Part shown: piece by piece, positions 3,704 through 64,000 of the stretch | Layout of the letters: each line of letters opens with the position of its first letter | How positions within the stretch are numbered: position 1 is the stretch's first letter | Assembly (NCBI GenBank): GCA_905234235.1 | Contig: CAJOHN010000006.1 | Coordinates: 1 to 64,000, forward strand | Direction: 5' to 3' | Source: an uncultured Selenomonadaceae bacterium | GTDB taxonomy: Bacteria; Bacillota; Negativicutes; Selenomonadales; Selenomonadaceae | Length of the DNA stretch: 64,000 nt | Notes under the pieces: model-generated | What the model was told of the DNA's origin: nothing | Database searches by the model: none | Seen by the model: the letters and a program-made list of their open reading frames with translations, nothing else | Program-made: the position numbers and the translations under genes

Positions 3704-3714
3704 TCTGCGCGGAT

Positions 3715-3751
3715 AAAAAAATTCCCCACCGTTTGGCAGGGGATTTTTTTT
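3715..3751. terminator. Bidirectional intrinsic terminator between convergent genes
   Basis: TCCCC pairs with GGGGA around a short loop, with an A7 run before and a T8 run after, so it can stop both the rightward RTX transcript and the leftward sigma-like transcript. Confidence 0.75.
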
Positions 3752-3753
3752 GC

Positions 3754-4242: not shown

Positions 4243-4661
4243 GCGATTTGATTAAGCAGAGCCTTGCAACCGCGCAGAATGTCATCGTAAGTCGTGGCGA
4301 AACCGTTTTTATCCCAAGGAATATCTTTATCGAGGAGCATTCTGACTTTGCCAGCCGAATCGCCGCCGACAATCTCCTTAACCTGCTCGACGTTGCCCGC
4401 GTCCATGCAAACGATTAAATATGCGCCGTCGTAATCGTCTTTAGTGATAGTGTGCGCCGTGTGTTCGCCGTAAGGAATTTCTTCTGCGCGGAGTTTGGCG
4501 GCAATGCCCTCGTGAAGATTTTTTGACGTTATCGGCTTGCTTGCCGCGCTCGAAACAGAAATTTTATTACTCAAGCCCGCGTCCGCGATTAATTTTTCCA
4601 TAACAAACCGCGCCATCGGTGAACGCCCCGTATTTCCACTGCATACAAATAAAATTTTCAT
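4239..4661 (-). CDS. Low-molecular-weight phosphatase, probable protein-arginine phosphatase (YwlE-like)
   Basis: 140 residues from the ATG that follows GGAGGAAG by a normal spacing; an upstream in-frame ATG lies inside that ribosome site. The P-loop is CSGNTGRS at the N-terminus, giving the C-x5-R-S nucleophile loop of the LMW-PTP family. The Thr after GNx, in place of the usual Ile, is the residue known to favour phospho-arginine in YwlE. The usual second Cys of the YwlE loop is Gly here. The C-terminal D-P general-acid loop is not obvious; a PWDKNGF segment stands in its place. No McsB arginine kinase is visible in the window. Enzyme class is confident; arginine specificity is inferred from one residue. 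Confidence 0.8.
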   Translation of the reverse strand: MKILFVCSGNTGRSPMARFVMEKLIADAGLSNKISVSSAASKPITSKNLHEGIAAKLRAEEIPYGEHTAHTITKDDYDGAYLIVCMDAGNVEQVKEIVGGDSAGKVRMLLDKDIPWDKNGFATTYDDILRGCKALLNQIA

Positions 4662-4691
4662 CGAAACTTCCTCCAAAATATTTTTGTCGTA

Positions 4692-4720
4692 ATTTTAACC
4701 TCTAAAACCGCTCTACGCAA
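4692..4720 (-). promoter_or_regulatory. Promoter of the phosphatase/sigma-like pair
   Basis: On the minus strand TTGCGT, a 17-bp spacer, then TAAAAT, about 30 bp ahead of the phosphatase start. Confidence 0.55.
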
Positions 4721-4727
4721 TAAAAAC

Positions 4728-4762: not shown

Positions 4763-4784
4763 AACACTTTGGGAGGTTAATGTC

Positions 4785-5861: not shown

Positions 5862-5865
5862 AAAA

Positions 5866-5908: not shown

Positions 5909-5923
5909 CGTTATCAACAGAAA

Positions 5924-6484: not shown

Positions 6485-7967
6485 TGTTTTCAACCTCCTC
6501 GACGACTTCAAACAGAGCTTTAGCCTTTTGTAAAAATTCGCGGTACTCATTTAGCGGAATTGAATCGGCGACAATGCCCGCGCCCGTCTGAATCACGGCG
6601 TCAATGTCGTTTTCAATGCGCATCGTGCGCAACGTAATGCACATGTCCATATTTCCGCAAAAATCCATGTAGCCGACAGTGCCCGCGTAACTTTTGCGGC
6701 GAACAGGCTCTAATTCGTGGATAATTTCCATAGCGCGGAGTTTCGGCGCACCGCTAACTGTTCCCGCTGGGAAAGTCGCCTTCAAAACGTCAACGGGTGT
6801 GAAATTTTCTTTGAGCGTGCCGACGACGCTTGAAACCATGTGCATAACGTGGCTGAAATATTCCACTGCGCGGAGCTTTTCGACTTTTACAGTGCCAGCC
6901 GCGCAGATTCTGCCCAAATCATTCCGCGCCAAGTCGACAAGCATTGAGTGTTCGGCATTTTCTTTAACGTCGGATTTAAGTTCGTTGGCAAGCAAATTAT
7001 CTTCGTCAAAATCCTTGCCGCGACGACGAGTGCCTGCTATCGGATAAGTATAAACTTTTTGCCCCGCGACTTTAACCAACATTTCGGGCGAGGCTCCAAC
7101 CAATTTAACGCTACCGAAGTTCAGATAGAACATGTACGGCGACGGATTGATTTGCCGGAGCTTGCGATAAAAAAGGAACGCCGGCTTAGAAATTTTGGCT
7201 TTAAACTGTTTAGACGGCACGACTTGGAAAATATCGCCCGCGAAAATATATTCCTTAGCCTTTTCGATAGCCGATAAAACTTCGGGCGGAGCTTCGCCGT
7301 ATTTTTCGATGAAGTTAATCGGCTCGTGAAGAGTTTTATAATTGGACGTGGACAAACTGAGCGGCGCGGAAATTTTTTCGGCGAGTTCGTTCATGCGCGA
7401 AGTTATTTCGGCGTAAAGTTCGGGCAAATTATCTTGATTCTTAACGTCGGCAAGATAAATAAGCCGCGCAGAGTTTTTAAGGGCGTCGAGGACAATCAGC
7501 ACGCGGCAAATCATAAATTGCCCCAAAAGTTCTTCGTCGCCGAGCTCCAAACCGCGAATCCTGTCGAACGTCGCAGCGACTTCAAAATTAAAATAGCCGA
7601 TCATGCCGCCGTTTGCAAGCGGAAGATTTTTATCGAGATTAGCGGGCTTATAACGCGCCATAAATTTTTTAATCGCGTCAACAGGTTCGCCGTCAATGCA
7701 TTTCATCAAGTCGCAGTCGCGAATCATCAATTTTGACTTGAAAACTTGCAACTCAATGAAGGGTTCCGCGCCGATAAAAGAAAATCGCCCGAAAGCTTGT
7801 TGCGTGGTGTCGACGGATTCGAGAATAAAGCCGCGCCCGTCAACAATTTTATAAAAAATCGAAACGGGGGTATCCAAGTCGGTGTTAATTTCGGCTGAAA
7901 CCGCGATAAGGTTAGAATTTTGCGCGAAGGCTTGGAAATCTTGCAGGGTCGGGGAAATTTTTAGCAA
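6468..7967 (-). CDS. trpE: Anthranilate synthase component I
   Basis: 499 residues. It converts chorismate and ammonia to anthranilate. The N-terminus has the feedback-site element (F-I-L-E-S-V, then GRFSFIG) and the C-terminal chorismate-binding domain has PSPYMFYL, GASPEMLV, PIAGTRRRG, the D-L-A-R-N-D-L-G-R block and FPAGTVSGAPK. PIAGTRRRG favours TrpE over PabB. The start is taken as TTG, 8 nt after AGGAG; the GTG three codons upstream touches that ribosome site. No other trp gene lies nearby. It is the middle gene of an operon running from the small exported protein to trpG. Confidence 0.88.
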   Translation of the reverse strand: MLKISPTLQDFQAFAQNSNLIAVSAEINTDLDTPVSIFYKIVDGRGFILESVDTTQQAFGRFSFIGAEPFIELQVFKSKLMIRDCDLMKCIDGEPVDAIKKFMARYKPANLDKNLPLANGGMIGYFNFEVAATFDRIRGLELGDEELLGQFMICRVLIVLDALKNSARLIYLADVKNQDNLPELYAEITSRMNELAEKISAPLSLSTSNYKTLHEPINFIEKYGEAPPEVLSAIEKAKEYIFAGDIFQVVPSKQFKAKISKPAFLFYRKLRQINPSPYMFYLNFGSVKLVGASPEMLVKVAGQKVYTYPIAGTRRRGKDFDEDNLLANELKSDVKENAEHSMLVDLARNDLGRICAAGTVKVEKLRAVEYFSHVMHMVSSVVGTLKENFTPVDVLKATFPAGTVSGAPKLRAMEIIHELEPVRRKSYAGTVGYMDFCGNMDMCITLRTMRIENDIDAVIQTGAGIVADSIPLNEYREFLQKAKALFEVVEEVENNDSPA

Positions 7968-8325: not shown

Positions 8326-9387
8326 TTAACGGTCGGAGCCCAAAATATTTCCTGCGAAGTCGACGAGGATAGTTTTGACTTCCAACTTGCCAAAAACGTA
8401 ACGCTCCGCACGAAGGCTGGCACGTTCGGCGATTTTGTTATAAATTTTTTCGAGATGATTGGCGGAAATAATCTGCGCGGCGTCTTCGGTGGTGTTAGCG
8501 TTTAAAATTTTTTGAACTTCGGTTGCGGGAAGACCTTCAGCCGCCGCATAAGCCGCCAAAGTTTCAAGTCGAGCGTCGGCAACTCTGTTATGCGTATGAA
8601 AAACGCCCGCCGCAACTTTAACGAGCTTGCCGAGATGTCCGCACAAAATTATTTTGGGAATTTGCCGTTCAGCCGCCGCCTCCAACATAAATCCGATAAA
8701 ATTACTCGTCTGGATAATCGCGCCGTCGTTGAAGCCGAGTTTTTTAGCGATAGTCTCGCCGATTTTGCCCGGCACGAAAATTAATTCATCAAAGCCCGCC
8801 GCCTTCGCCACGTCAATTTGAGGCACGAGAGAATTCTTAAAAGCCTCCTCTGACATCGGGCGTAAAACTCCGGTTGTTCCGATTATCGACAAGCCGCCTT
8901 CGACGCCCAAAATCGGATTCAAAGTTTTTTTAGCGAGTTCGACGCCGTTCGGAATAGAAATTTCAACTTCAAGCCCGCCGATATTAAATTCTTCAGCGAC
9001 GTTGCGGATTAATTCTCGCGGCTTTGGATTAATCGCGGGTTCGCCAACTTTTAATTGCAAGCCGGCTTTAGTGATGTGTCCGACGCCTAAACCTGCGCGG
9101 AAAATAATCTTATCAGCAAAAATGCGGCGCACCGTCGTGAAAACAGATGCGCCGTTGGTAATATCTGGGTCGTCGCCCGAATCTTTTATGATTTCTGCGC
9201 GGATTCCGTCAGAAAATTTTTCAACACTCTTAACGGGGATTTTTAAAGGCGTGCCGTCAAGCGCAGTGATCTCGACTTCGGAAATAATTTCGCCCGTCGT
9301 CATATAAATCAGTGCCGCTTTAACGCCCGCAGCCGCACAGGCTCCCGTTGTGTATCCGCCGCGAAGAAATTTTTTATCGGTTGTCAT
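8326..9387 (-). CDS. cbiD: Cobalt-precorrin-5B C1-methyltransferase
   Basis: 353 residues. CbiD methylates C1 of the corrin ring in the anaerobic (early cobalt insertion) route to cobalamin, using SAM. The signature start RGGYTTGACAAAGVKAAL, the D-G-T-P-L-K-I-P-V segment, KDSGDDPDITNG and the GTTGVLRPMS loop are all present, and the length is normal. The start used is the ATG before TTDKKFLRGG, which overlaps the end of rmlB by 14 bp; there is no clear ribosome site, so coupling to rmlB is likely. It is separated from the other cobalamin genes of the window (cobS, pduX), so the pathway is scattered. Confidence 0.92.
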   Translation of the reverse strand: MTTDKKFLRGGYTTGACAAAGVKAALIYMTTGEIISEVEITALDGTPLKIPVKSVEKFSDGIRAEIIKDSGDDPDITNGASVFTTVRRIFADKIIFRAGLGVGHITKAGLQLKVGEPAINPKPRELIRNVAEEFNIGGLEVEISIPNGVELAKKTLNPILGVEGGLSIIGTTGVLRPMSEEAFKNSLVPQIDVAKAAGFDELIFVPGKIGETIAKKLGFNDGAIIQTSNFIGFMLEAAAERQIPKIILCGHLGKLVKVAAGVFHTHNRVADARLETLAAYAAAEGLPATEVQKILNANTTEDAAQIISANHLEKIYNKIAERASLRAERYVFGKLEVKTILVDFAGNILGSDR

Positions 9388-10393
9388 ACATTTTGGCATA
9401 ATAATTTTTGTACTCGCCGCTGATAATTTTTTCCCACCAAGCGCGATTGTCGAGGTACCACGCAACAGTTTTCTTTATGCCGTCGTCGAATTTAGTTTTG
9501 GGCGTCCAACCGAGTTCATTTGTAATTTTTGTCGGGTCGATTGCGTAACGTTGGTCGTGCCCTTTCCTGTCAGTGACAAATTCAATAAGCCCCTCGCTCT
9601 TGCCGAGAATTTTTAGAATCGTCTTGACGACTTCAAGATTGGTACGCTCGTTGTGCCCGCCGATATTGTAAACTTCGCCGACAGTTCCCTTGCGAATTAT
9701 CAAATCAATCGCCGCGCAGTGATCCTCGACGTAAAGCCAATCGCGAACGTTCAAACCCTTGCCGTAGACGGGCAATTTTTTATCGTGGAGCGCGTTGATA
9801 ATCATCAGCGGAATTAATTTTTCCGGAAAGTGATACGCGCCATAATTATTCGAGCAACGGCTTATCGTCGCGGGGATTTGATACGTCCGTTGATAAGCTT
9901 GAACCAACAAATCCGCCGCCGCCTTACTCGCTGAATACGGGCTGGACGTGTGCAAATTAGTTTTCTCAGTAAAAAATAAATCGGGGCGGTCGAGCGGCAA
10001 GTCGCCGTAAACTTCGTCCGTCGAAACCTGATGAAAACGTTCAATGCCAAACTTCCTGCAGGCGTCGAGCAAAACGCTTGTCCCGATAATATTCGTGCGC
10101 AAAAAAAGTTCGGGGGCTTCAATCGAGCGGTCAACGTGACTCTCCGCCGCAAAATTCACGACGACATCGGGCTTTTCCTCCGCAAAAAGTTTATAAACAA
10201 AATCACGGTCGGCAATGTCTCCGCGAACAAATTTAAAACTCGGATTAGCCTGCGCCTCCGCCAACGTTTCAAGGTTGCCCGCGTAAGTGAGCTTGTCAAG
10301 GCAAATAATTTTATCATCAGCGTGATTCTTAAGTTCGTAGTAAACAAAGTTGCTGCCGATAAAACCCGCGCCGCCCGTCACGATTATCTTCAT
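9374..10393 (-). CDS. rmlB: dTDP-glucose 4,6-dehydratase
   Basis: 339 residues from the ATG behind GGAGGAAATTTTT. It makes dTDP-4-keto-6-deoxyglucose, the branch point to dTDP-rhamnose and other deoxysugars of surface polysaccharide. The NAD-binding TGGAGFIGSN is at the N-terminus, then NFAAESHVDRS, the catalytic T-D-E-V-Y-G (Thr-Asp-Glu), the Y-S-A-S-K-A catalytic Tyr/Lys pair, and NNYGAYHFPEKLIPL. No other rml gene is adjacent; it sits between a wall amidase and cbiD, 18 bp from the former. Confidence 0.92.
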   Translation of the reverse strand: MKIIVTGGAGFIGSNFVYYELKNHADDKIICLDKLTYAGNLETLAEAQANPSFKFVRGDIADRDFVYKLFAEEKPDVVVNFAAESHVDRSIEAPELFLRTNIIGTSVLLDACRKFGIERFHQVSTDEVYGDLPLDRPDLFFTEKTNLHTSSPYSASKAAADLLVQAYQRTYQIPATISRCSNNYGAYHFPEKLIPLMIINALHDKKLPVYGKGLNVRDWLYVEDHCAAIDLIIRKGTVGEVYNIGGHNERTNLEVVKTILKILGKSEGLIEFVTDRKGHDQRYAIDPTKITNELGWTPKTKFDDGIKKTVAWYLDNRAWWEKIISGEYKNYYAKMYDNR

Positions 10394-10411: not shown

Positions 10412-12160
10412 TCAGCCGAAATAATCCTCAATGCCGTCGAGAATACCCTGCGCGGCTTTCTGAACGCCTTCCTTTGAATCCAAAAGTTTTTCCTCGTCCT
10501 TGTTCGATATGAAACCAAGTTCAATCAGCGTGGCGGGCATGTCGGTATGTTTGACGACGTAGAAATTGCAAGGTTGAGTTCCGCGACTTGGTGTGCCGAG
10601 TTGTTCAACCAAATTGCGACGAATACAATCGGCAAGTTTCTGCCCTCTGCCGCTGGTACTTTTGCTGTAATAATAGCCCGTCGTACCGCGCGCTTCGGGT
10701 CGTGTGAAACTGTCAGCGTGAATCGATATGAAAATATCCGCGCCATTTTTATTGGCGACTTCGCAACGCGCGCCCAGTTCTTCAATATCGGAAGCCTTCG
10801 CGCCCTTAGCAGAAACGGTTTTATCTGTCTCGCGAGTTAGGATTACTTGTGCGCCCTCCGCCTCAAGCAATTTTTTTAGCTCCAATGAAACTTTAAGCGT
10901 GACATTTTTTTCCATGACGCCCGTCGGTCCGATTGCGCCCGCGTCGTTGCCGCCATGTCCTGGGTCGATAACAATTTTCTTGCCGCTGAGTGTAGTAATT
11001 TTATTCAAGTCGCTATCTAATTCCTTAAAAGGCTGATCGACTTCCTTATCTTTATCGCCGTCTTTATCTTTGTCCTTATCTTTTTTATCCTTGTCTTTTT
11101 TCTCGCGACGTTCCTGTTTTTCTTTTTCCTTAAGTTGTTTTTCGCGCTCGCGCTGCTCCCTGATTGTTTGTTCCTGTTTTTCTTTAAGTTCACGCTCTTG
11201 CTTTTCTTTGAGCTCGCGTTCCTTTTTTTCTTTAAGTTCCTGTTCTTGCTTTTCTTTAAGTTCGCGTTCCCATTTCTCGCGGAGTTCCTTCTCCCACTGA
11301 GCTTTAAGTTCAGCTTCCTGCTTAGCTTTAAGTTCAGCTTCCTGTTTAGCTTTAAGTTCGGCTTCCTGCTTAGCTTTAAGTTCAGCCTCTTGCTTGGCTT
11401 TAAGTTCAGCTTCCTGCTTGGCTTTAAGTTCAGCTTCTTGTTTGGCTTTAAGTTCGGCTTCCTGCTTAGCTTTAAGTTCAGCCTCTTGCTTAGCTTTAAG
11501 TTCAGCTTCCTGCTTAGCTTTAAGTTCGGCTTCCTGTTTAGCTTTAAGTTCGGCTTCCTGCTTAGCTTTAAGTTCAGCCTCTTGCTTGGCTTTAAGTTCA
11601 GCTTCTTGTTTGGCTTTAAGTTCGGCTTCTTGCTTAGCTTTAAGTTCAGCCTCTTGTTTAGCTTTTAATTCGGCCTCTTGTTTGGCCTTCAAAGCGGCGG
11701 CATCGGGATTTGGTTTATTAAGTTCGGGATTCGCCTTGAAGTCGCTATTGCCCACGTCGATAACTAAGCGGTGTCCTTTGGCTCCGCCGTCCAAATAAAA
11801 AGTTTTCGTATCCGCCATAGTTTCGATGACGATTCTGACTGTCGAGGGATTAAACTGCGCGACACGAATTTTTTTAGCCGCTAACGACTTCAATTCAATC
11901 TCGCGCTTAACGTTTGGACTGAGCCAAGAATTTTTTAAATCGATAATCATGCGCGAGGGATTTTCTGCATAAGCCTCAGCAAATTCAACTTTTTTGGTAA
12001 TGTCGATGACAATCCTGACCGTGCCCGAACCGTAGCCGACGCGAACCGCCCCGACCTCAGCGAGGTTAGCTTTTCGTTCGTTAAATGTTTGTTCCGCCGC
12101 ATTAACAACTGAAGTCGCCGCAATTAAAATGAGGAGACTCAGCATTATTTTCCTAATCAA
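10412..12160 (-). CDS. N-acetylmuramoyl-L-alanine amidase (AMIN + long charged helix + Amidase_3)
   Basis: 582 residues from a TTG, 9 nt after GAGGAGG. It cleaves the amide between MurNAc and the stem peptide, most likely in the periplasm for cell separation. Order: signal peptide (1-21), an AMIN-type beta domain that usually targets septal peptidoglycan (about 35-140), an extreme Lys/Glu/Gln/Ala-rich helical segment (about 152-390) made first of 17 copies of an 8-residue unit, then a zinc Amidase_3 domain (about 398-582). Catalytic residues are visible: DPGHGG (zinc His), the Glu of ARCEVA, SIHAD (second His) and the Glu of IELGFISN. The linker is predicted to form a single alpha helix of more than 200 residues, long enough to span a wide periplasm. 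Confidence 0.9.
   Translation of the reverse strand: MIRKIMLSLLILIAATSVVNAAEQTFNERKANLAEVGAVRVGYGSGTVRIVIDITKKVEFAEAYAENPSRMIIDLKNSWLSPNVKREIELKSLAAKKIRVAQFNPSTVRIVIETMADTKTFYLDGGAKGHRLVIDVGNSDFKANPELNKPNPDAAALKAKQEAELKAKQEAELKAKQEAELKAKQEAELKAKQEAELKAKQEAELKAKQEAELKAKQEAELKAKQEAELKAKQEAELKAKQEAELKAKQEAELKAKQEAELKAKQEAELKAKQEAELKAKQEAELKAQWEKELREKWERELKEKQEQELKEKKERELKEKQERELKEKQEQTIREQREREKQLKEKEKQERREKKDKDKKDKDKDKDGDKDKEVDQPFKELDSDLNKITTLSGKKIVIDPGHGGNDAGAIGPTGVMEKNVTLKVSLELKKLLEAEGAQVILTRETDKTVSAKGAKASDIEELGARCEVANKNGADIFISIHADSFTRPEARGTTGYYYSKSTSGRGQKLADCIRRNLVEQLGTPSRGTQPCNFYVVKHTDMPATLIELGFISNKDEEKLLDSKEGVQKAAQGILDGIEDYFG
11290..11698 (-). repeat. 24-bp tandem repeat, about 17 copies, inside the amidase gene
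   Basis: Each unit encodes AELKAKQE. Copies differ mostly by third-position changes (ttc/ttg, tta/ttg, agc/ggc) and show a higher-order pattern, a mark of recent duplication. Because the unit is a multiple of three, gain or loss of copies would keep the frame and only change linker length. Confidence 0.9.
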
Positions 12161-12181: not shown

Positions 12182-12826
12182 TTAAGTTTCATATGAGCCG
12201 TAACGTTGCTCCAATTTCTTAAAAATCCACGTCAGCACCGCCGTCATGCCCAGATAAAATATTCCCGCGATAACAAAGGGCGTCATGTCGAATTCGCGTT
12301 GAACAATCGTCCGCGCCACGCGTAGCAAATCGTTCATTGCCAAGATATAAATCAGCGACGTATCTTTGACAAGGTTTATAGTTTCGTTGGAAATCGGCGG
12401 CAGGACGACGCGCAACACTTGCGGGAAAATTATATAGCGCATCATCTGCCAATGCTTAAGTCCCAATGCTTTTGCCGCTTCGTATTGCCCGCGAGGTATT
12501 GCTTGAATGCCTGCGCGGAAAACTTCAGCAAAGTAAGCGGCGTAGTTAAGAGTGAAAGCCAACAGAGCCGCCGCCACGTCCGGCAACATTATCCCGACCA
12601 TCGGGAGCGCGAAGTACACGAACAACAGTTGCAACATTAACGGCGTACCGCGCATTATCCAAACGTAAAACTCCATAAGGTAGCGCATCGGCGCGAAACT
12701 CGAAATGCGCCCTAATGCCGCCAGTGCTCCGATTGGCAAGCTTAAAATTAAAGTCACGAAGAAAATTTCCAACGTGACTTCCGCCCCCTGCATTATCAGG
12801 AGCGTCATATCTAAAAATTTTTCCAT
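12182..12826 (-). CDS. Polar amino-acid ABC transporter permease
   Basis: 214 residues of the HisM/GlnP family. Several membrane spans and the EAA loop (Y-E-A-A-K-A-L-G-L-K, residues about 115-125), which docks onto the ATPase, are visible, as are RGTPLMLQL near the N-terminus and the conserved N-E-T-I-N-L-V-K-D-T-S-L stretch. Four binding proteins lie directly upstream, but no ATPase gene is present in this run; the next gene downstream is the amidase, 21 bp away. The permease must therefore borrow an ATPase encoded elsewhere. The substrate cannot be read from the sequence beyond amino acids. Confidence 0.88.
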   Translation of the reverse strand: MEKFLDMTLLIMQGAEVTLEIFFVTLILSLPIGALAALGRISSFAPMRYLMEFYVWIMRGTPLMLQLLFVYFALPMVGIMLPDVAAALLAFTLNYAAYFAEVFRAGIQAIPRGQYEAAKALGLKHWQMMRYIIFPQVLRVVLPPISNETINLVKDTSLIYILAMNDLLRVARTIVQREFDMTPFVIAGIFYLGMTAVLTWIFKKLEQRYGSYET

Positions 12827-14593: not shown

Positions 14594-14614
14594 GCTGAAA
14601 CCTCCTCATGAAAG

Positions 14615-15397: not shown

Positions 15398-15421
15398 GCC
15401 CAAAACCTCCTTATAACTTTT

Positions 15422-17630: not shown

Positions 17631-17673
17631 TGTTTCCTCAAGCCTTACGACTTCCCCGCTTGTTCCCTCAAGC
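17631..17673 (-). repeat. Direct repeat in the ompM leader
   Basis: Two 13-bp copies of TGTTYCCTCAAGC (plus-strand reading, 12 of 13 identical) 30 bp apart, the second ending at about the predicted transcription start. They would lie at the very 5' end of the roughly 130-nt ompM leader. Confidence 0.5.
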
Positions 17674-17680
17674 CGCGCAG

Positions 17681-52468: not shown

Positions 52469-53094
52469 TGAAAATTTTAATGCATATGTGTTGCGCGCCG
52501 TGTTCGTGTTATCCCGTAAAAAAATTGCGGGAAGAAAATTTTGAACCCGTCGGCTATTTTTTTAATCCGAACATTCATCCGCACCAAGAATGGAAAAATC
52601 GTTTGAAATCTGCGCGGGATTTTGCTGATAAAGTTGGCATGGAAATTTTTTACGATAATCATTACGGCTTGCGGGAATTTTTATCGAAGGTTTCAAGCGT
52701 TGTCGACGAGGCGGATACAATTCAATTCGCGGACGGTTTCCATAAGCGTTGCGGGATTTGTTACTCGTGGCGATTGAGTGAGGCGGCGCGTTTTGCGGCG
52801 GATAATAATTTTGAAATTTTTACGTCAACGCTTCTGTACAGCAAGCACCAGAATCACGAATTGATAAAAAAAATCGCCGAGCATTTCGCGAATGTGTTCG
52901 GCGTTAAATTTTTTTATGAAGATTTCCGCGCAGGTTGGCAGGAAGGAATTGATTTAAGTTTGGAACTTGGACTTTATCGGCAAAATTATTGCGGTTGCAT
53001 TTTCAGCGAGGAAGAACGTTTCAGTAACGACCTGCGCAAGGCACGGAAGAAATTTTTTACTTCTCGGCTTGAGCCGCTTTGTGTTCCTCGATAA
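52468..53094 (+). CDS. queH: Epoxyqueuosine reductase QueH
   Basis: 208 residues. QueH (DUF208) does the last step of queuosine synthesis in organisms without QueG. The metal and Fe-S Cys pairs are present: M-H-M-C-C-A-P-C near the N-terminus, R-C-G-I-C-Y-S-W in the middle and N-Y-C-G-C-I late, with F-N-P-N-I-H-P between. The start is the ATG in TGATG. The last 38 bp also encode the end of the opposite-strand EF-G paralogue. Confidence 0.9.
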   Translation: MKILMHMCCAPCSCYPVKKLREENFEPVGYFFNPNIHPHQEWKNRLKSARDFADKVGMEIFYDNHYGLREFLSKVSSVVDEADTIQFADGFHKRCGICYSWRLSEAARFAADNNFEIFTSTLLYSKHQNHELIKKIAEHFANVFGVKFFYEDFRAGWQEGIDLSLELGLYRQNYCGCIFSEEERFSNDLRKARKKFFTSRLEPLCVPR

Positions 53095-55167: not shown

Positions 55168-56007
55168 CTATTCTATCGTCGACGCAGTTTTTCCTGCCAA
55201 AAAGTTTGACAGCGCGGCGAATTCCTCTAAGCTTAAAGTCTCGGCGCGTCTTGAAACGTCAATTCCGGATTTTAAAACTCTATCACGCCCGAAACTCGCC
55301 AATGAATTTAATAGCGTCTTCCGCCGTTGAGCAAACGCCATGCGCACAACCTTAAAGAAAAAATCTTCGTCAACGTCCAAATTTTTATTCCGAACGTCAC
55401 ACACCACCACTGAACTTGTAACTTCGGGCGACGGTAAAAAACATTCGGGCGGCACGTCGAACGCTATCCTCGACTCTGCGCGGAATTGAACGGCGACAGA
55501 TAACGCCCCGTAAATTTTTGAACCCGGCGCGGCTGTCATACGTTCGGCGACTTCGCGTTGTACCATCGTCACGATTTTTGTTACCGGCAAGTTTTTTTCC
55601 AACAACGTCAACAAAATCTGCGTCGTGATGTAATACGGCAAGTTCGCTACGACTTTGAATCTGCGCGGCATCAACTCCGATAAATTTACCTTTAAAATGT
55701 CTCCTTCGACGAGCCGAAAATTTTCATAGCCCGCCAATGTTTCTTTTAGCACGGCGGGTAATTTTTTGTCCAATTCGACGGCTGTAACATTCGCGCCCGC
55801 CTCCAATAAGCCTTGCGTCAACGTCCCAATCCCCGCGCCGATTTCTAAAACTTCCTCGCCCGCGCAGATGTCAGCCGCCTCAACAATTTTCCGCACAACC
55901 TCCGCATCGATTAAAAAATTTTGTCCGAGCCCTTTGACTGCCCGCAATTTAAATTTTTTTAGTATGTGGCGCGTCGCCGAAGGATTAGCGATTAACGGGT
56001 GTAACAT
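55168..56007 (-). CDS. rsmA: 16S rRNA adenine-N6,N6-dimethyltransferase
   Basis: 279 residues. K-G-L-G-Q-N-F-L-I-D, E-I-G-A-G-I-G-T-L-T, the E-L-D-K acid and the catalytic N-L-P-Y-Y motif, with the F-P-S-P-E-V-type P-S-P-E-V-T-S-S-V. It dimethylates A1518/A1519. It overlaps rnmV by 23 bp, the usual Firmicute pairing. Confidence 0.95.
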   Translation of the reverse strand: MLHPLIANPSATRHILKKFKLRAVKGLGQNFLIDAEVVRKIVEAADICAGEEVLEIGAGIGTLTQGLLEAGANVTAVELDKKLPAVLKETLAGYENFRLVEGDILKVNLSELMPRRFKVVANLPYYITTQILLTLLEKNLPVTKIVTMVQREVAERMTAAPGSKIYGALSVAVQFRAESRIAFDVPPECFLPSPEVTSSVVVCDVRNKNLDVDEDFFFKVVRMAFAQRRKTLLNSLASFGRDRVLKSGIDVSRRAETLSLEEFAALSNFLAGKTASTIE

Positions 56008-56533
56008 TTTTCAACGCCTCCAAAAATTCTTCGCGAGTGACGCCGTAATTATTCAGCCGCCGCACGAAAGTTTTCACGTTGCCATAACCAATCCCGAGAG
56101 CCGCGCCGATTTTGTCACGAAGTTTGGAACTGTCCGCGCCGCCCGATAAATTAAACGTAACCATCTCCACCGCCGTAAATTCTTCGCGAGGATTAATTTC
56201 AAGCGTGCGAACTTTACTTAAGGCTTTGCGAATTGATTCGGGCGACGCCTGCTCAACTCCTACGTCGTCATTAGCGGTTGCCTCGTCGCGGGGAATGTAA
56301 GCGTGTTTGGCTTCGGGGAATTTCTTCGATAAAAAATTTCTGATATTTTCGCCCGCCGAATCCGGGTCGGTTAAAATAATTATCCCACGCTTTTTATAAG
56401 CCGCAGAAATATTTTTAAGTGTCCGCGCAGTGATATGAAAGCCGCCCGTCGTAATACACTCCGCCTCGACAGCACGTTTAACCGCGATAACGTCGGCTTT
56501 GCCCTCGACAATCAAAACTTCTTTAATCAACAT
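55985..56533 (-). CDS. rnmV: Ribonuclease M5
   Basis: 182 residues after CGGAGG. Toprim domain: V-L-I-V-E-G-K-A-D (Glu), I-I-I-L-T-D-P-D-S-A-G (DxD) and the H-A-Y-I-P-R-D turn. It matures 5S rRNA in Firmicutes and related bacteria. Gene order with rsmA supports the call and the phylum. Confidence 0.92.
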   Translation of the reverse strand: MLIKEVLIVEGKADVIAVKRAVEAECITTGGFHITARTLKNISAAYKKRGIIILTDPDSAGENIRNFLSKKFPEAKHAYIPRDEATANDDVGVEQASPESIRKALSKVRTLEINPREEFTAVEMVTFNLSGGADSSKLRDKIGAALGIGYGNVKTFVRRLNNYGVTREEFLEALKNVTPVNR

Positions 56534-57515: not shown

Positions 57516-58288
57516 TGAATTCGTTTTTAATCGGGCTACAATTTTTGACGCGGATAAATATCGTTAAGCAAAGCGTTTGGACGGAGCAAAGTTTCGGCGA
57601 GTCGGTGAAATTTTTTCCGGCGGTCGGTGCGGTACTCGGAATAATCTGCGCGGGCGTTCTTGGCGCGATAAATTTTTTGAACTTGCCGCTGTTGACGGGC
57701 GCGGTAGGATTTTCTTTGCTGATAATTTTAACGGGCGGCATTCATTGCGATGGATTAATGGATTCGGCTGACGGATTATTTTCGGGGCGCGAGCGCGAAA
57801 AAATTTTAGAGATAATGAAGGACAGCCGCGCAGGTTCATTCGGCGTCGTGAGTATGATTTTAGTTGCGGCGATAGAAATTTCGACGTTGGCGGAACTCGC
57901 GAGGCTTTCGACGTGGTTTTTATGCACAGCGATTTATTCTGCGCCGATAATCGCAAGGCTGATGATGGTCGTAACAATCGGAGCGTTCCCCTACGCGAGA
58001 AAATCGGGCATGGGCAAAGCGTTCGCGAAGTTCACGAAACGACGGACGATAATTTTTGCAACGTTTGAGGCGATTTTATTTTTGCTCCCGCTAATTTTTA
58101 TCAGCAAAATATTTTTAATCTGCGCGGCGTTGGCGAGTTTGTTTTCGTTAATCGTGACGTGGAAATTTGCAACGTTCGCGACTGAAAAAATCGGTGGCGT
58201 GACGGGCGACATTTACGGAGCAGTAACGACTTTATCTGAAATGTTCGTGCCGATAATTTTTTTGCTGATTGGAAATTATTTGCGATGA
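57515..58288 (+). CDS. cobS: Adenosylcobinamide-GDP ribazoletransferase
   Basis: 257 residues, polytopic. It joins adenosylcobinamide-GDP to alpha-ribazole, a last step of cobalamin assembly. Signature G-G-I-H-C-D-G-L-M-D-S-A-D-G-L-F-S-G, then K-D-S-R-A-G-S-F-G, A-R-L-M-M-V and G-G-V-T-G-D-I-Y-G-A late. The start is the Met in TGATG before NSFLIGLQFLTRI; the longer frame adds eight unrelated residues. It overlaps pduX by ATGA. Confidence 0.93.
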   Translation: MNSFLIGLQFLTRINIVKQSVWTEQSFGESVKFFPAVGAVLGIICAGVLGAINFLNLPLLTGAVGFSLLIILTGGIHCDGLMDSADGLFSGREREKILEIMKDSRAGSFGVVSMILVAAIEISTLAELARLSTWFLCTAIYSAPIIARLMMVVTIGAFPYARKSGMGKAFAKFTKRRTIIFATFEAILFLLPLIFISKIFLICAALASLFSLIVTWKFATFATEKIGGVTGDIYGAVTTLSEMFVPIIFLLIGNYLR

Positions 58289-59070
58289 AAGTTACGGTTA
58301 AAATGCGCGGTACTTGCGGCGAATTGGCTCAGGGGTTTTATCGCGGCGAACCGATTTTGATAACTTGCCCGATTGAAAAATTCTCGACGGCGATTGTATC
58401 TGATGAATTTGCGGGAGTTGAAGGGCTCGGCTCAAAGTCATTGGCGATACTCGACAAAGTTTTAAAAATTTTCGGCGCGGAAGATTTTAAATTCGGCGTG
58501 CGCTTGACTTCAGAACTTCCTCGCGGCAAAGGCATGGCGTCTTCCTCAGCGGATATGGCGGCGGTCGCGCAAGCAGTCGCGTTGTCGTTAGGGAAAAAAT
58601 TTTCTCCCGCTGAACTCGGCAGACTCTGCGCGGACATTGAACCGACTGACGGAATTTTTTATGGTGGCGTCGTCGCGATGAATCCTTTGACGGGACGATT
58701 GATAAAAAACATTCGGGCGCGCGAAAAATTTCAAATCGCGGTGTTCGATTACGGCGGTGAAGTCGACACGATAAAATTTAATCGCCGCAGTGATTTTGAG
58801 ATAAAAAATCTTGACGACGAAATTAATTTTGAACTCGCGAGAAAATCCGCGCTTGCTAATCAAAAAATTTTACCGAAGCCCAAACTCGAAGAGTTGATAA
58901 ATTTTTCTAAAGAGATTGAAGCACTCGGCGTAAACATTGCGCATTCGGGGACGGTCGCGGGAATTTTTTTTCATGCAGACGATTCACACGTTGAAGAAAG
59001 AATTTTAGCCATCCAAAAAAGTTTCGACTTCCTGCAGTTTATAACGTTGACAAAGCTATGGTACAATTAA
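58285..59070 (+). CDS. pduX: L-threonine kinase for cobalamin (GHMP family)
   Basis: 261 residues. It phosphorylates threonine to make the aminopropanol linker of cobalamin. P-E-L-type start C-G-E-L-A-Q-G-F, the ATP loop L-P-R-G-K-G-M-A-S-S-S-A-D and the late A-H-S-G-T-V-A-G-I-F-F are the PduX/BluE signature. It pairs with cobS here, so the organism builds its lower-loop parts itself. Two bases of overlap with cobS and tight spacing support one transcript. Confidence 0.88.
   Translation: MKVTVKMRGTCGELAQGFYRGEPILITCPIEKFSTAIVSDEFAGVEGLGSKSLAILDKVLKIFGAEDFKFGVRLTSELPRGKGMASSSADMAAVAQAVALSLGKKFSPAELGRLCADIEPTDGIFYGGVVAMNPLTGRLIKNIRAREKFQIAVFDYGGEVDTIKFNRRSDFEIKNLDDEINFELARKSALANQKILPKPKLEELINFSKEIEALGVNIAHSGTVAGIFFHADDSHVEERILAIQKSFDFLQFITLTKLWYN
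59059..59067 (+). promoter_or_regulatory. Extended -10 promoter of the coiled-coil membrane protein
   Basis: TGGTACAAT (TG-n-TACAAT) just inside the end of pduX; the -35 is poor. Confidence 0.35.
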
Positions 59071-59429: not shown

Positions 59430-60476
59430 TTGAATAAAAAATTCTTGGCGGCGATTATCGTTGCAAATTTTTTTGTCGTCGGTTGCGATAAAGAAATTAC
59501 TCCACCGAAGCCGCCGCTCGTCAAAGTTCAGCAAATCAAGCTCTCGAACTCCGCGCAGGAAGAAAATTATTCGGGCGTCGTTCGCGGTCGCTACGAAACT
59601 AATTTATCGTTCCAAGTCAGCGGCAAAATTATCTCTCGCGACGTTCAAGCAGGCTCGTTGGTGCGGGCGGGCGATATTTTGATGACGCTCGACCCAAAAG
59701 ATATTGTCGAACAATCGCGCACTGCCGACGCGCAAGTTGATTCGGCTCGTGCGCAACTTGAACTAGCTAAAGCAAATCTCGACAGGTACAGCGAACTTTT
59801 CAAAGCGGAAGCCGTCGCCGCTGTTGTCCTCGACCAATACAAAACTCAATACGACGCCGCCAAAGCCACTTACGACGCGGCAATCGCGCAAGCCCGTCAA
59901 AGTCAAAACGCCCTCGACTACACAACCTTAACAGCCAATGCTGACGGAGTTATTTCCGAAGTCAGCGCGGAAGTCGGGCAAGTCGTTGCGGCGGGGCAAA
60001 GCGTCTTAAAACTCGTGCAAACTAATGAACTTGAAGTCGTCGTCGACATTCCCGAAAATAAAATTTCAAACATGCAAATTGGTCAGCGCGTCTCGATAAA
60101 TTTTTGGGCGACTAATGAAACTGTAAGCGGCACCGTTCGCGAAGTTTCTCCGATGGCTGATTCTGCGTCGCGAACTTTTACCGTAAAAATTTCTCTGCCC
60201 GATGTCAATAACATTCAACTCGGCATGACTGCTAACGTTTCAATCCGCGAAGTTACACCGAGCGCGATTATCTTGCCGCTAAGTGCGATTTATCAGACGG
60301 GCGACGCCGCGCAGGTTTGGATTGTAGACGGCGGAAAAGTTTCGCTGAAAAAAATTGAAGTCACTGCCTTTGACGATAACAACGTTCGAGTGCGCGGGCT
60401 TAATTCGGGCGATACTGTTGTGGTTGCGGGCGTCAACAAACTCCGCGAAGGGCAAGACGTAAGGACGGGTGATTGA
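59430..60476 (+). CDS. RND efflux periplasmic adaptor (membrane-fusion lipoprotein)
   Basis: 348 residues starting at TTG, 5 nt after GGGAGGTG. Lipobox V-V-G-C near the start, then Q-V-S-G-K-I-I, a lipoyl half, a helical hairpin with Ala/Gln-rich helices (about 95-160), the second lipoyl half (A-D-G-V-I-S-E-V) and a beta-barrel and membrane-proximal part. It joins the inner-membrane pump to an outer-membrane channel. No TolC/OprM gene is adjacent. Confidence 0.9.
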   Translation: MNKKFLAAIIVANFFVVGCDKEITPPKPPLVKVQQIKLSNSAQEENYSGVVRGRYETNLSFQVSGKIISRDVQAGSLVRAGDILMTLDPKDIVEQSRTADAQVDSARAQLELAKANLDRYSELFKAEAVAAVVLDQYKTQYDAAKATYDAAIAQARQSQNALDYTTLTANADGVISEVSAEVGQVVAAGQSVLKLVQTNELEVVVDIPENKISNMQIGQRVSINFWATNETVSGTVREVSPMADSASRTFTVKISLPDVNNIQLGMTANVSIREVTPSAIILPLSAIYQTGDAAQVWIVDGGKVSLKKIEVTAFDDNNVRVRGLNSGDTVVVAGVNKLREGQDVRTGD

Positions 60477-60477
60477 C

Positions 60478-63400
60478 TTGCGCAACTTAACGGAGCTGTC
60501 ACTCAACAATCGGAGTCTCGTTTGGTATTTTATAATCGTGGCGTTTATCGGCGGGATTTTTTCTTACTTCAATCTCGGACGCATGGAAGATCCGAAATTT
60601 GTTGTACGTCAAATGATTGTGGCGGCTTACTGGCCGGGCGCGACTGCTTACGAAATGCAGGAACAAGTTACCGACAAGCTCGAAAAAAAATTGCAGGACA
60701 TTCCGGGACTCGACAACTTAACAAGTGAAACTCGCCCCGGTTCGACTGTGATTTACATCGAACTTAACGACGAGCTTCCTACCGACCAAATCCGTCCGAC
60801 GTGGCGCGACGTTAGGAATTATTGCGCCGATATTGAAAACGAATTGCCGAGCGGTGTTGCGGGGATTTTTTTTAATGACACTTATGATGAAGTTTTCGGC
60901 TCCGTTTACGCGTTGACGGGCGACGGTTTCAATTACGAAGAGCTCCGCCACTACGCTGAAGAAATTCGCCGCTTGCTGTTGGGCGTTCACGACGTTAAAA
61001 AGATTGAACTTATCGGCGTGCAAAGCGAAGTTGTTTACGTCGAGATTGAACAGGCTAAACTTTCCGAACTCGGCATAAGCCCGCAAGTTATATCGAACAC
61101 TCTCGCCGCGCAGAATGCCATGACGCCCGCCGGTATGATTGACACTTCAAGCGACAATGTTTATCTGCGTGTGACTGGGATTTTCGACGACGTTGCCGCG
61201 ATAAAAAATTTGCCGATAAACGCGGACGGAAGAATTTTTCGCCTCGCTGATATTGCCAACGTTGAACGGCGATTTGTCGACCCGCCCGAACCTAAAATGT
61301 TTTTCAACGGCGAGCCTGCGATTGGAATAGCAGTTGCGATGGAGGACGGCGGCAACATTCTAAAGCTCGGAGAAAATCTGCGCGGCTTAACGAAACAAAT
61401 ACAACAGGAATTACCGCTGGGCTTGGAACTTCATCAAGTATCGAATCAGCCGCAAGTCGTGGAAGAATCAATCGGCGAATTCGTCGAGACGTTAGTTTTA
61501 GCAATTGTAATCGTGCTTGCCGTGAGCTTCGCGAGTTTAGGCGTGCGGACGGGATTAGTCGTTGCAGGTTGTATACCGTTGGTATTGGCGGGGACGTTTT
61601 GTTTTATGTATGTCGCGGGGATTGATCTGCACAAAGTTTCGCTGGGCTCGCTGATAATTGCGCTGGGGCTTTTGGTTGACGACGCGATAATCGCAGTGGA
61701 AATGATGAGCGTACAGTTAGAGCGCGGGCTGTCGAGGTTTGATGCGGCGTGTCACGCGTTCAACGTCACGGCTAAACCGATGTTGACGGGCACGCTGATA
61801 ACCTGCGCGGGCTTCATACCGGTAGCGTTCGCCAAAGGCATAGCAAGCGAATTTTGCCGCGACATGTTTTGGGTCGTGTCAATCGCGCTACTGCTGTCGT
61901 GGATAGTTTCAGTGATGGTCGCGCCGCTGTTCGGAACTTACATAATCAAAGTTGAAAAAAAATCTGAGGCGGAACTTTATCAGAGCCGATTCTATAAAAT
62001 TTTCCGACGCGTGCTGGAAACGTTTTTGGACAATAAAATTTTAGTGCTGAGCGGAACAATCTTTACATTCGCGGCTACAATCCTTGCTTCGGATTTTGTT
62101 CAAGAAGAATTTTTCCCGCCGTCAATACGTCCCGAAATTTTAATCGAATTGAAGTTGCCTGAAGGCTCATCAATGGCGGCGACGCAAGCTGAGGCTGGTA
62201 AGTTTGCCAAATTCCTCAACAGCGAGCGCGATAACTTAAAAAATTTTGCTTACTACGTCGGAGAAGATACGCCGCGTTTCGTGCTGACGATTTCTCCGAA
62301 TGCCGACGGCGATAATATTGCCAAGTTTGTTGTGACGGCTAACGAGGACAATCGCGACGAGTTGATAAAAAAAATTCGCCACGAGTTGGAAGAAAATTTT
62401 CCACTCGTGCGCCCGAATATCCAACTGATTCAGACCGGACCGCCCGCCGATTATCCGATTATGCTCCGCGTCTCCGGCACCGACATTGATAAAGTTCAAG
62501 AGCTCGCCGCGCAGGTTGCCGACATTGTCGCGCAGGATTCAAACGCCGTTGATGTTAATCTTGATTGGAATGAAAAATCCAAAGTTGTGAAGATTGAACT
62601 AGACCAAGATAAACTTCGTGCGCTGGGCGTGTCGAGTCAGCTTGTGAAGTCGACGCTTTACACTGAAATCACGGGCGCGAAAGCTTCAGAATTTTACACG
62701 GGCGACAGGACGATTGATATTGATTTGCGCCTCGCCGAAGCCGACAGGAATAATCTTGCGGCGTTGAAAAATTTGCCGATATACTTGGGCGCGGCGGGCT
62801 ACGTTCCGCTTGAGCAAATTGCAAAAATTTCTTACGGCGCGGAGTTTGGATTGATAAAGCGGCGCGATTTGAAACCGACAATCACGGTACAGGCGAACAT
62901 TTTATCCGGCACTGCCAACGACGCGGCTATCAAAGCTTTTGACGCGACGGAGGACTTAAGAAAAACTTTACCGCTCGGCTACTTAATCGAACCGGGCGGC
63001 GACTTGGAGGAAAGCGATACGTCAACGGGACAACTCGCGGCGATGTTGCCGTTGGTTGTGTTCATAATCATGACGCTGTTGATGTTCCAATTAAAAGACG
63101 CCAAAGCAATGTTCCTAACGCTGTTGACCGCGCCGCTGGGATTAATCGGTGTAATTTTCGCGCTGATAATTTTGTCAAAGCCGTTGGGCTTCGTGGCGGA
63201 GCTTGGAGTTATCGCACTGTCGGGAATGATAATTCGCAACTCGGTAATTCTAATTGACCAAATCCAACAGCACTTGCGAGCGGGCGAAAATTTCCACGAC
63301 GCGATAATCGATTCAGCGATTTTAAGATTCAGACCGATAATGTTGACGGCGGCGGCGGCGATACTTGGCATGTTGCCGTTAATGGTAAGCGTCTTTTGGG

Positions 63401-63513
63401 GACCGATGGCGGTTGCGATAGCGGGCGGGCTTTTAGTCGCGACGATTTTAACGTTGTTAGTTTTACCCGTCATGTACGCGGCAGTTTATTTTTGGAAGGA
63501 GTTTAAGCAATGA
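60478..63513 (+). CDS. RND efflux pump, inner-membrane permease
   Basis: 1011 residues from a TTG 9 nt after AAGGACGG; an in-frame GTG three codons earlier touches that site. AcrB-type layout: twelve membrane helices, two large periplasmic loops, the proton-relay pair in L-G-L-L-V-D-D-A-I-I-A-V-E-M (helix 4) and the C-terminal half repeat. The adaptor and permease are one operon. Substrates are probably drugs, bile salts or toxic metabolites. It ends by ATGA overlap with the next gene. Confidence 0.92.
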   Translation: MRNLTELSLNNRSLVWYFIIVAFIGGIFSYFNLGRMEDPKFVVRQMIVAAYWPGATAYEMQEQVTDKLEKKLQDIPGLDNLTSETRPGSTVIYIELNDELPTDQIRPTWRDVRNYCADIENELPSGVAGIFFNDTYDEVFGSVYALTGDGFNYEELRHYAEEIRRLLLGVHDVKKIELIGVQSEVVYVEIEQAKLSELGISPQVISNTLAAQNAMTPAGMIDTSSDNVYLRVTGIFDDVAAIKNLPINADGRIFRLADIANVERRFVDPPEPKMFFNGEPAIGIAVAMEDGGNILKLGENLRGLTKQIQQELPLGLELHQVSNQPQVVEESIGEFVETLVLAIVIVLAVSFASLGVRTGLVVAGCIPLVLAGTFCFMYVAGIDLHKVSLGSLIIALGLLVDDAIIAVEMMSVQLERGLSRFDAACHAFNVTAKPMLTGTLITCAGFIPVAFAKGIASEFCRDMFWVVSIALLLSWIVSVMVAPLFGTYIIKVEKKSEAELYQSRFYKIFRRVLETFLDNKILVLSGTIFTFAATILASDFVQEEFFPPSIRPEILIELKLPEGSSMAATQAEAGKFAKFLNSERDNLKNFAYYVGEDTPRFVLTISPNADGDNIAKFVVTANEDNRDELIKKIRHELEENFPLVRPNIQLIQTGPPADYPIMLRVSGTDIDKVQELAAQVADIVAQDSNAVDVNLDWNEKSKVVKIELDQDKLRALGVSSQLVKSTLYTEITGAKASEFYTGDRTIDIDLRLAEADRNNLAALKNLPIYLGAAGYVPLEQIAKISYGAEFGLIKRRDLKPTITVQANILSGTANDAAIKAFDATEDLRKTLPLGYLIEPGGDLEESDTSTGQLAAMLPLVVFIIMTLLMFQLKDAKAMFLTLLTAPLGLIGVIFALIILSKPLGFVAELGVIALSGMIIRNSVILIDQIQQHLRAGENFHDAIIDSAILRFRPIMLTAAAAILGMLPLMVSVFWGPMAVAIAGGLLVATILTLLVLPVMYAAVYFWKEFKQ

Positions 63514-64000
63514 TTGATTTTAAAGACTTCGGCATTGAGGACAACGTGCGCTATTTGGAATATGTTAAGCGTTGCATTCAAATTCCGTCGAACGGCTCGC
63601 CGCTGATTGCGTTCGGATACAAGAAAAAGCTCAAGCTTCTGCGCGGCTATGAGGCAGAACTTTGTTGGCATAAATTTTTCATTGACGACGCGGAATTTTG
63701 GGCAGCTCCCGTCGGCGATTGGGACAATATTGACTGGCAAGCGGTCTTCGCGACGCACGTACCGCCCGAAACTGTTTTCTTTGCCGTTCCGGAATATCTT
63801 GTTGAGATTTGGAAACGCGAACTTGGCGAAAAAGTTTTAGTCGAAGATCAGCGCGATAATTGGGATTATCTTTTGGATTTGAAACGCCTCGTAAGTCTTG
63901 AGGGCAACAAATTGAAAAGCTTCCGCAAAGCCAAAAAAGCCTTCGAGAAAAATTATGATTATGAGATTGAGGTTATCACGCCGAAAATATTTGACGAGTT
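63510..64000 (+). CDS. DUF2156-family protein (phosphatidylglycerol lysyltransferase C-terminal type), partial
   Basis: The gene starts at the ATG that overlaps the RND stop and runs off the end of the window; 163 residues are visible. V-E-D-Q-R-D-N-W-D-Y-L-L-D-L-K-R-L-V-S-L-E-G and K-L-K-S-F-R-K-A-K-K-A-F match the DUF2156 acyltransferase-like (GNAT-fold) family, which includes the catalytic domain of MprF. No membrane part is visible in the N-terminus, so it is likely the stand-alone cytosolic form. Substrate unknown. Confidence 0.75.
   Translation, partial: MIDFKDFGIEDNVRYLEYVKRCIQIPSNGSPLIAFGYKKKLKLLRGYEAELCWHKFFIDDAEFWAAPVGDWDNIDWQAVFATHVPPETVFFAVPEYLVEIWKRELGEKVLVEDQRDNWDYLLDLKRLVSLEGNKLKSFRKAKKAFEKNYDYEIEVITPKIFDE

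Follow-up and report, generated by a model that had tools for sequence, protein, structure and literature searches.

A 64,000-nucleotide stretch of DNA from an uncultured Selenomonadaceae bacterium (positions 1 to 64,000 of contig CAJOHN010000006.1, assembly GCA_905234235.1; hereafter the window) is strewn with copies of one octamer, CTGCGCGG. The octamer is the core of a longer motif, AAYCTGCGCGG, which is probably a DNA uptake sequence of a Selenomonadaceae genus. An abundance of about one copy per kb, balanced orientation, indifference to coding sequence, near-random spacing and one-letter dialects in sister species together match the DNA uptake sequences (DUS) of Neisseriaceae and the uptake signal sequences (USS) of Pasteurellaceae. 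On this reading, which we think the best, Negativicutes would have evolved an uptake-word system independently, as the third group to do so.

Abundance, flanks and placement of the word

An exact search found 69 copies of CTGCGCGG in the window, 40 on the + strand and 29 on the - strand. A preliminary description of the window, made by eye, had counted 68; it missed one copy, but all 19 coordinates it named are real + strand copies. Markov models of order 0, 1 and 3 predict 1.3, 3.5 and 3.7 copies on both strands together, and the word is 19- to 52-fold enriched over orders 0 to 3, which upholds the claim of a count far above chance. Expectations climb at higher orders, to 7.6 (order 4), 24.7 (order 5) and 52.3 (order 6), and the order-6 model, which the preliminary description had named as a possible refutation, does come much nearer to the count. 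However, orders 5 and 6 were trained in the same window and already contain the motif's own words (for order 6, its 7-mers). The order-6 model is therefore not an independent null, and we reject it as a refutation; even under this model, CTGCGCGG is the highest-scoring 8-mer in the window.

The enrichment persists outside the window, and the octamer is, as had been supposed, genome-wide. The source assembly (G000; 2,148,753 bases in 46 contigs, 85.7% complete) holds 2007 copies against 278 of the reversed word, which served as a control. The strands are nearly even, with 1022 copies forward and 985 reverse (145 and 133 for the control), and all 20 sampled 20-kb stretches contain between 11 and 31 copies. 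The genome-wide density, 0.93 per kb, bears out the earlier likening to DUS.

Flanking bases were tabulated for the 480 copies in a 464-kb sample, consisting of the window and 20 stretches of 20 kb from G000 (later G000 stretches were excluded). Upstream, A occupies position -3 in 53% and position -2 in 55% of copies, with a weaker preference for A at -5 and -4. Position -1 is T in 58%, C in 28% and, after rounding, G in 0%, while T is scarce at +8 (10%). Within the window, T or C precedes 60 of the 69 copies, A precedes 9 and G none, in line with what had been noticed by eye. The full motif AAYCTGCGCGG occurs 701 times in G000 (9 times for the reversed pattern), and the extended form AATCTGCGCGG occurs 126 times in 464 kb where an order-3 model expects 1.0. 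Two refinements of the preliminary description follow from these and the comparative counts below: the octamer is the core of a motif of at least 11 bases, and a one-letter dialect is found in sister species. Downstream, AT is enriched at +10, +13, +16 and +19; because this period is three bases, the pattern may be a codon effect rather than helical-phase AT tracts like those of USS.

Some near-matches are also over-represented in the 464-kb sample relative to an order-2 model: CTGCGCGA 2.3-fold, CGGCGCGG 2.5-fold and CTGCGCGT 1.7-fold. Other near-word counts are odd, with CTCCGCGG absent where 22.9 are expected, CCGCGCGG at 8 against 58 and CGGCGCGG at 182 against 74. Two further words, AAAATTTT and AAAAATTT, are strongly over-represented as well (1000 against 277 and 830 against 277, order-3 model), and their excess is seen in many genus mates. 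AAAATTTT gives 150 counts on both strands of the window, being palindromic, with each place counted twice.

The word is distributed with little regard for genes. We called 360 genes in the sample with a simple script based on open reading frames and codon usage, so that gene boundaries are approximate; 169 copies are in coding sequence in the sense direction, 213 in antisense, and 98 of the 480 lie outside predicted genes. The non-coding share of the copies (20.4%) is almost that of the DNA itself (19.8%), showing no preference for either kind of region. The word occurs in all frames, as first described: five of the six reading phases hold 35 to 120 copies, and the sixth, an antisense phase, holds 12. 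Shuffling synonymous codons within each gene, which keeps both the protein and its codon usage, predicts 19.0+-3.6 sense and 13.0+-3.0 antisense copies. With 382 coding copies against 32 after shuffling, protein and codon use cannot explain the word, a conclusion that the preliminary description had reached for codon use from the frames. Weaker excesses over the shuffle are found for other words, such as GGCGGCGA (133 against 64 in sense) and the reversed word GGCGCGTC (33 against 12.7). The codon pairs that spell parts of the word are also overused, with LR, AR, AQ and RA at 3.0-4.0 times, CA at 1.9 times and PR at 1.5 times the codon-frequency prediction.

Local strand balance was tested per stretch, giving a chi2 of 13.5 with 21 degrees of freedom (p=0.89); stretches L003 and L004, for example, have strand counts of 8/9 and 10/10. 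The fraction of + copies per stretch does correlate with GC skew (Spearman -0.60, p=0.004), which we read as a mild antisense preference of the word. A preferred orientation within genes has also been described for known uptake sequences in the cited part of the literature (PMC2346458).

The spacing of the copies is near-exponential (coefficient of variation 0.98, Kolmogorov-Smirnov p=0.03), and counts per 20 kb are slightly over-dispersed (variance/mean 1.2). Close neighbours are rarer than chance would have them, with 8 of 459 intervals at 60 bp or less against about 29 expected. DUS pairs often form terminators. Unlike these, inverted pairs are rare here, with two close opposite pairs in 464 kb where about 15 are expected, and we reject a terminator or hairpin role.

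One-letter dialects and their distribution

We counted CTGCGCGG and its one-letter variant CTGCGCGA in 36 genus mates (assemblies 59-100% complete), expressing counts per Mb from rounded genome sizes and setting the dialect classes after the counts were seen. Sixteen of the 36 favour CTGCGCGG, with at least 300 copies per Mb and more than of CTGCGCGA (503-2103 copies); we call this the G dialect. Six favour CTGCGCGA and make up the A dialect (G004, G006, G019, G025, G034 and G035). The A-dialect genomes contain 1242-2335 copies of CTGCGCGA and 123-375 of CTGCGCGG, or about 620 to 1225 and about 68 to 179 per Mb, densities that depend on assembly completeness and possible mixing. The extended form AATCTGCGCGG belongs to the G dialect and has AATCTGCGCGA as its A-dialect counterpart. 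In the other 14 genus mates, neither word is clear or both are middling (G021, G018, G029).

The codon shuffle confirmed both dialects in the relatives to which it was applied. Observed and expected counts are 113 and 6.5 in G004, 77 and 6.2 in G006 and 31 and 2.4 in G034 for the A dialect, and 66 and 8.8 in G010 and 59 and 3.6 in G023 for the G dialect. G021 shows 3.7- and 5-fold excesses of the two words.

Single sites can be followed where the window aligns with a relative. In L118, from an uncultured Selenomonadaceae bacterium of red deer with the A dialect, two of five aligned window sites read CTGCGCGA instead of CTGCGCGG; these are the copies at 52610..52617 (+) and 52926..52933 (-). 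The word itself is retained at two of nine aligned sites in L041, namely 31602..31609 (-) in mutL and 35230..35237 (-), and at one of three in L042, at 32511..32518 (+) in mutS. Retention at 2/9 and 1/3 of sites indicates that turnover is fast.

The remaining exact copies are spread through the window as follows. Besides the copies already mentioned, mutL contains 30690..30697 (+), 31369..31376 (-) and 31724..31731 (+), and mutS contains 32419..32426 (-) and 32959..32966 (+). One close opposite pair is formed by 6866..6873 (+) and 6899..6906 (-). The + strand further carries 3705..3712, 4484..4491, 8473..8480, 9093..9100, 9195..9202, 10448..10455, 12511..12518, 15769..15776, 22416..22423, 22584..22591, 24318..24325, 25437..25444, 25772..25779, 27267..27274 and 29413..29420 before these two genes, and 35764..35771, 38877..38884, 40076..40083, 40163..40170, 40922..40929, 46293..46300, 47924..47931, 50701..50708, 51296..51303, 51751..51758, 54548..54555, 55476..55483, 55661..55668, 57646..57653, 58120..58127, 58626..58633, 61378..61385, 61803..61810 and 63639..63646 after them. 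On the - strand, the copies are 4270..4277, 7464..7471, 9712..9719, 17673..17680, 20546..20553, 21696..21703, 23917..23924, 25226..25233, 28874..28881 and 29210..29217 before, and 37371..37378, 38520..38527, 48074..48081, 48862..48869, 50075..50082, 50937..50944, 55860..55867, 56423..56430, 57826..57833, 59551..59558, 60307..60314, 61106..61113 and 62507..62514 after. The nearest named match of the MutS protein is 88% identical and comes from a Selenomonadaceae metagenome-assembled genome (MAG) from goat reticulum, in agreement with the class Negativicutes proposed in the preliminary description. G000 is probably a MAG as well, to judge by how complete it is and how many contigs it has. The window also encodes a 1122-aa protein with RTX calcium-binding repeats (335-3703, +); its gene is the longest predicted one in the sample with no copy of CTGCGCGG, despite having a homologue in the genus pool.

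How far the word extends beyond the genus was gauged in a draw of 250 genomes of the class, counted for CTGCGCGR alone. Outside the genus, no genome in this draw had more than 1000 copies together with a four-fold excess over the reversed control, and the word at such a level was limited to part of one genus. The largest ratio outside it, among genomes with at least 20 copies, was in G056 of family f21 (210 against 24 in 1.6 Mb), which may represent a related but weaker signal. Four- to five-fold ratios at lower counts were found in G204 (264 against 55), G125 (278 against 68) and G055 (110 against 23). G201, a fourth genus member in the draw, is poor in the word (383 against 298). Different words may be in use in other families.

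Two genus mates are nearly free of the word, G013 with three and G008 with five copies of CTGCGCGG. In samples of both, the palindrome GCGC is nearly purged (observed/expected 0.03), and CTGCGCG occurs 0 times in 154 kb of G013 and once in 84 kb of G008. As GCGC is nearly gone, neither word can be common in these species. TCTGCACG, however, is enriched in both, at 162 and 165 per Mb against 0 to 87 in the other 12 samples, and we infer that this excess is the trace of a former word erased by HhaI-like restriction pressure. In samples of 13-154 kb from G003, G005, G007, G008, G013, G028 and G032 (leaving out stretch L191 of G003), no other enriched word reached a comparable density, except for A/T-rich words in G005 and C runs in G003. 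The latter include 28 matches to CCCCCCCC in 117 kb (overlapping, on both strands, with 20 distinct flanks) where about 0 are expected, and could be phase-variable C tracts.

Palindromes are avoided elsewhere in the genus too. In G000, GGCC stands at 0.02 and GATC at 0.12 of expectation. In 19 of the 20 species sampled, GGCC ranks within the top three of the avoided 4-base palindromes (observed/expected 0.01-0.33), often beside GATC, CCGG, CTAG or CATG. This avoidance suggests long-standing restriction pressure that differs by species.

Uptake machinery and a candidate receptor

The source genome encodes the expected parts of a DNA uptake apparatus. ComEC is 764 aa long, with DUF4131, Competence and Lactamase_B domains, ComEA and DprA are present as well, and a protein joining a zinc ribbon to a phosphoribosyltransferase is taken for ComF. 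There is a PilB-type ATPase and a PilQ-like secretin, so called from its setting and N-terminal domains, as well as two further secretins whose loci resemble Tad loci when read by eye. On contig 29, one operon (locus L158) encodes a PilT-type ATPase, a PilC-like protein (T2SSF) and an ABC ATPase judged FtsE-like by eye, and after the PilC-like protein come four proteins that are pilin-like by pattern or by eye. Elsewhere, directly adjoining comEC, genes for an OmpA-domain protein, a MotA/ExbB-family protein, an open reading frame at 14115-15500 and an SNF2-helicase/Mrr protein stand in a row (L140:11176-18239, contig C8 of G000), which we take to resemble a type I Zorya anti-phage system.

The first pilin of the L158 operon (L158:12533-12994) shows a prepilin signature, G-FATFE, in which Glu takes position 5, and has the C-terminal end IIFDSVGRFRGGREEP, containing GRFR. 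A profile search of the 37 genus genomes recovered orthologues in 31 of them, all spanning the C-terminal part; one further copy, in G013, was read by hand. A pattern search of the PilT loci of 12 other genomes detected the pilin in G017 alone; in the others, the profile search placed it elsewhere in the genome. Glu is invariant at position 5 across an alignment of 20 of the 31 orthologues (A2, omitting G002, G003, G007, G016, G019, G021, G028, G029, G032, G033 and G036). In the cited part of the work on Legionella, FimT has a conserved GRxR tail that binds DNA through its arginines (PMC8897410). The same pattern lies within the last 40 residues of 25 of the 31 genus orthologues. A longer tail, GRxRG[TSE]Y, is found in all six A-dialect species and in none of the 25 other orthologues, by a rule found after the fact. 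The NCBIfam family GspH matches 15 of the 20 aligned orthologues at E<=1 (best 2.3e-6). The FimT structure 7QYI is the only pilin structure matched beyond the N-terminal helix. Such matches weakly point to the FimT/GspH family, and a FimT/GspH-like minor pilin as the receptor is a plausible guess, somewhat short of an even bet. Three more pilin-like proteins, recognised by pattern or by eye, follow it (L158:12994-14451), and any of them could be the receptor instead.

A good deal weighs against this assignment and against an uptake role in general. The preliminary description had proposed a comparison with competence genes, and ComEA and ComEC are indeed present in G000, but their presence does not track the word. 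ComEC, ComEA, DprA and secretins are also found in species without it, as is a PilB-type ATPase in 12 of the 13 such species tested; machinery that is alike with and without the word does not discriminate. G006, with a strong A dialect and 99% completeness, has no DprA match. Uptake sequences might be expected to be enriched in core or maintenance genes over accessory DNA. Genes for which a partial genus pool (1.6 Mb) offers a homologue carry 1.09 copies per kb against 0.97 for the rest, which is no significant difference (p=0.24). Finally, Veillonella parvula, a competent member of the same class that, like G000, has a PilT-type ATPase and prepilins in one locus, prefers genomic DNA, but its authors judged a DUS unlikely as the cause in the part of the report cited here (PMC5397411).

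The pilin itself raises similar doubts. The GRxR pattern occurs in 11 of 15 species with the G dialect, in 6 of 6 with the A dialect and in 8 of 10 low ones; being common to all three classes, it is no predictor of the word. The A species cluster together in both the pilin tree (6 species, ultrafast bootstrap 75) and the PilB-type ATPase tree (12 genomes, with 5 of the 6 A-dialect ones; bootstrap 68), so the difference in the tail may be a single evolutionary event, reflecting no more than clade membership. The pilin of G005 groups with that of the G-dialect G010 (97/83), yet neither word is abundant in G005. The family assignment is also contested by other matches, as PRK10574 pilin (20 of 20 orthologues at E<=1, best 5.8e-7), GspG (19) and ComGE (17) each match more of the aligned orthologues than GspH. 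For the G000 pilin, NCBIfam gives ComGE as the best match, over the N-terminus (E=2.3e-4); GspH is absent among its matches there, and PRK10506, which matches 12 of the 20 orthologues, covers its residues 2-148 at E=0.13. In Pfam, GspH matches one of the 20 orthologues without significance (E=0.033), the N_methyl model finds no pilin in G000, and no family rises above the cut-off for any of the four L158 pilin-like proteins. The match to 7QYI has E=0.91 and spans profile positions 87-155, in the C-terminal region.

Alternative explanations and significance

Could the word instead be recognised by a DNA methyltransferase, either solitary or linked to restriction, and be kept abundant for an epigenetic or self-marking role? 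Such a methylase-linked role has been proposed for HIP1 of cyanobacteria, likewise a genome-wide over-represented octamer, and non-palindromic 8-mers can serve as methylase targets. The strong avoidance of short palindromes, moreover, indicates that restriction systems probably shape the genomes of the genus. HIP1 differs in being palindromic and common to much of a phylum; CTGCGCGG is non-palindromic and, at this level, restricted to part of one genus among the 250 class members sampled. Against a methylase role, restriction targets are avoided rather than enriched, the flank is graded (A at -5 to -2, almost no G at -1, few T at +8) and resembles the logo of a binding site more than a fixed recognition word, and each dialect would require a change of specificity while the genome rebuilt some 2000 sites. 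We therefore regard this explanation as improbable.

Only a slim chance attaches to biased gene conversion or repair, by which the word would spread through a selfish or mutational drive without any uptake preference. The pattern of near-matches (CTGCGCGA, CGGCGCGG and CTGCGCGT) and the drift between dialects would fit this too. However, no conversion system known to us targets an 11-bp word at all its genomic copies, and the documented drive of this kind is the uptake bias of Neisseriaceae and Pasteurellaceae.

That AddAB or RecBCD reads the word as a Chi-like hotspot of recombination is very unlikely. The range of length and abundance of Chi sites includes the values seen for CTGCGCGG, homologous recombination could also be the drive, and the correlation of the + fraction with GC skew speaks for it as well. 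However, Chi acts in one orientation, biased along the direction of replication, and segregation sites are also expected to be strand-polarised. Here the strands are balanced both genome-wide and locally (in a 46-contig assembly, with origin and terminus not placed), and a one-letter difference between sister species would not be expected. The preliminary description had listed an uptake signal, a Chi-like site and a replication marker among its candidate roles. Uptake fits best, and the latter two are disfavoured because local strand bias is lacking and the word changes within the genus.

The odds are similarly long for a site bound by a protein that organises, segregates or replicates the chromosome. 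The presence of the word in every 20-kb stretch sampled, in coding and non-coding DNA alike, agrees with such a role, but there is neither clustering nor strand polarity, and its near-absence from G013 and G008 would be odd for an essential function. Known segregation sites are also sparser than random spacing at about one per kb, the density found here. An artefact of base composition, codon usage or dipeptide preference, to which the order-6 expectation of 52 copies might seem to point, is practically ruled out by the 7-mers contained in that model, by the synonymous shuffling and by the proportionate share of non-coding copies.

Returning to a DNA uptake sequence, we infer that the word promotes uptake and that uptake bias is the drive behind its abundance. 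A type IV (competence) pilus would bind free double-stranded DNA, favouring fragments that bear the word, and the DNA would be drawn through the outer-membrane secretin and then to ComEA. A single strand would pass through ComEC and be recombined with the help of DprA and RecA. Because fragments with the word would enter more often and be recombined, word-bearing alleles would displace word-free ones, and the word would build up at every tolerable site, coding or not, in either orientation. A one-base shift in receptor specificity could then set the genome drifting to a new dialect, as with CTGCGCGA in the six sister species.

The likeness to known systems is close in several respects. In the sources cited, DUS occur as thousands of copies of a short word with species-level dialects, eight of which are described in Neisseriaceae (PMC3630211). 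The CTG core required in DUS is also found inside CTGCGCGG, although this may be coincidence. Unlike DUS, the word here is a different one, its host belongs to the Negativicutes within the Bacillota, and its uptake preference, shown for DUS, is predicted from sequence. The known DUS receptor ComP is a minor pilin, as the L158 candidate may be. USS, too, have about one copy per kb, an AT-rich flank and dialects, termed Hin and Apl in the cited part of one study (PMC12616744). Their predicted receptor ComN/PpdA is, according to the same passages, a minor pilin of the FimT/GspH family in which the placement of positive C-terminal residues follows the dialect (PMC12616744), and is thus the kind of protein that our candidate resembles. 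Unlike USS, the word here is extended by AT-rich sequence at its 5' end (A at -5 to -2). Both the word and the taxon are different, and the receptor is a candidate from its sequence. FimT of Legionella pneumophila (PDB 7QYI) is likewise a minor pilin with a C-terminal GRxR tail, and no uptake-sequence preference is described for it in the part of the report cited (PMC8897410).

According to the cited text of one study, Neisseriaceae and Pasteurellaceae are the only families known to recognise self DNA by a short word when taking it up (PMC12616744). Among the papers listed by our searches of an open-licence library, none described such a word for Negativicutes, and none of those listed for the letters of the octamer was about it. 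A fuller scenario is possible but on balance doubtful. Here the third, independently evolved uptake-sequence system would also be the first in Bacillota, and a single genus would hold at least two dialects that differ by one letter. The tail of a FimT/GspH-type pilin (GRxRG[TSE]Y in the six A species) would set the last base, and the two GCGC-purged species would have lost the word to HhaI-like pressure, leaving CTGCACG as its trace.

If true, a third unrelated case, in a diderm Firmicute, would mean that such systems evolve repeatedly, and comparing the dialects of one genus would be a way to map the specificity of the receptor. Natural transformation would also be predicted for these bacteria, most of whose named relatives here are uncultured ruminant MAGs, and adding the word to donor DNA would offer a practical handle on them.

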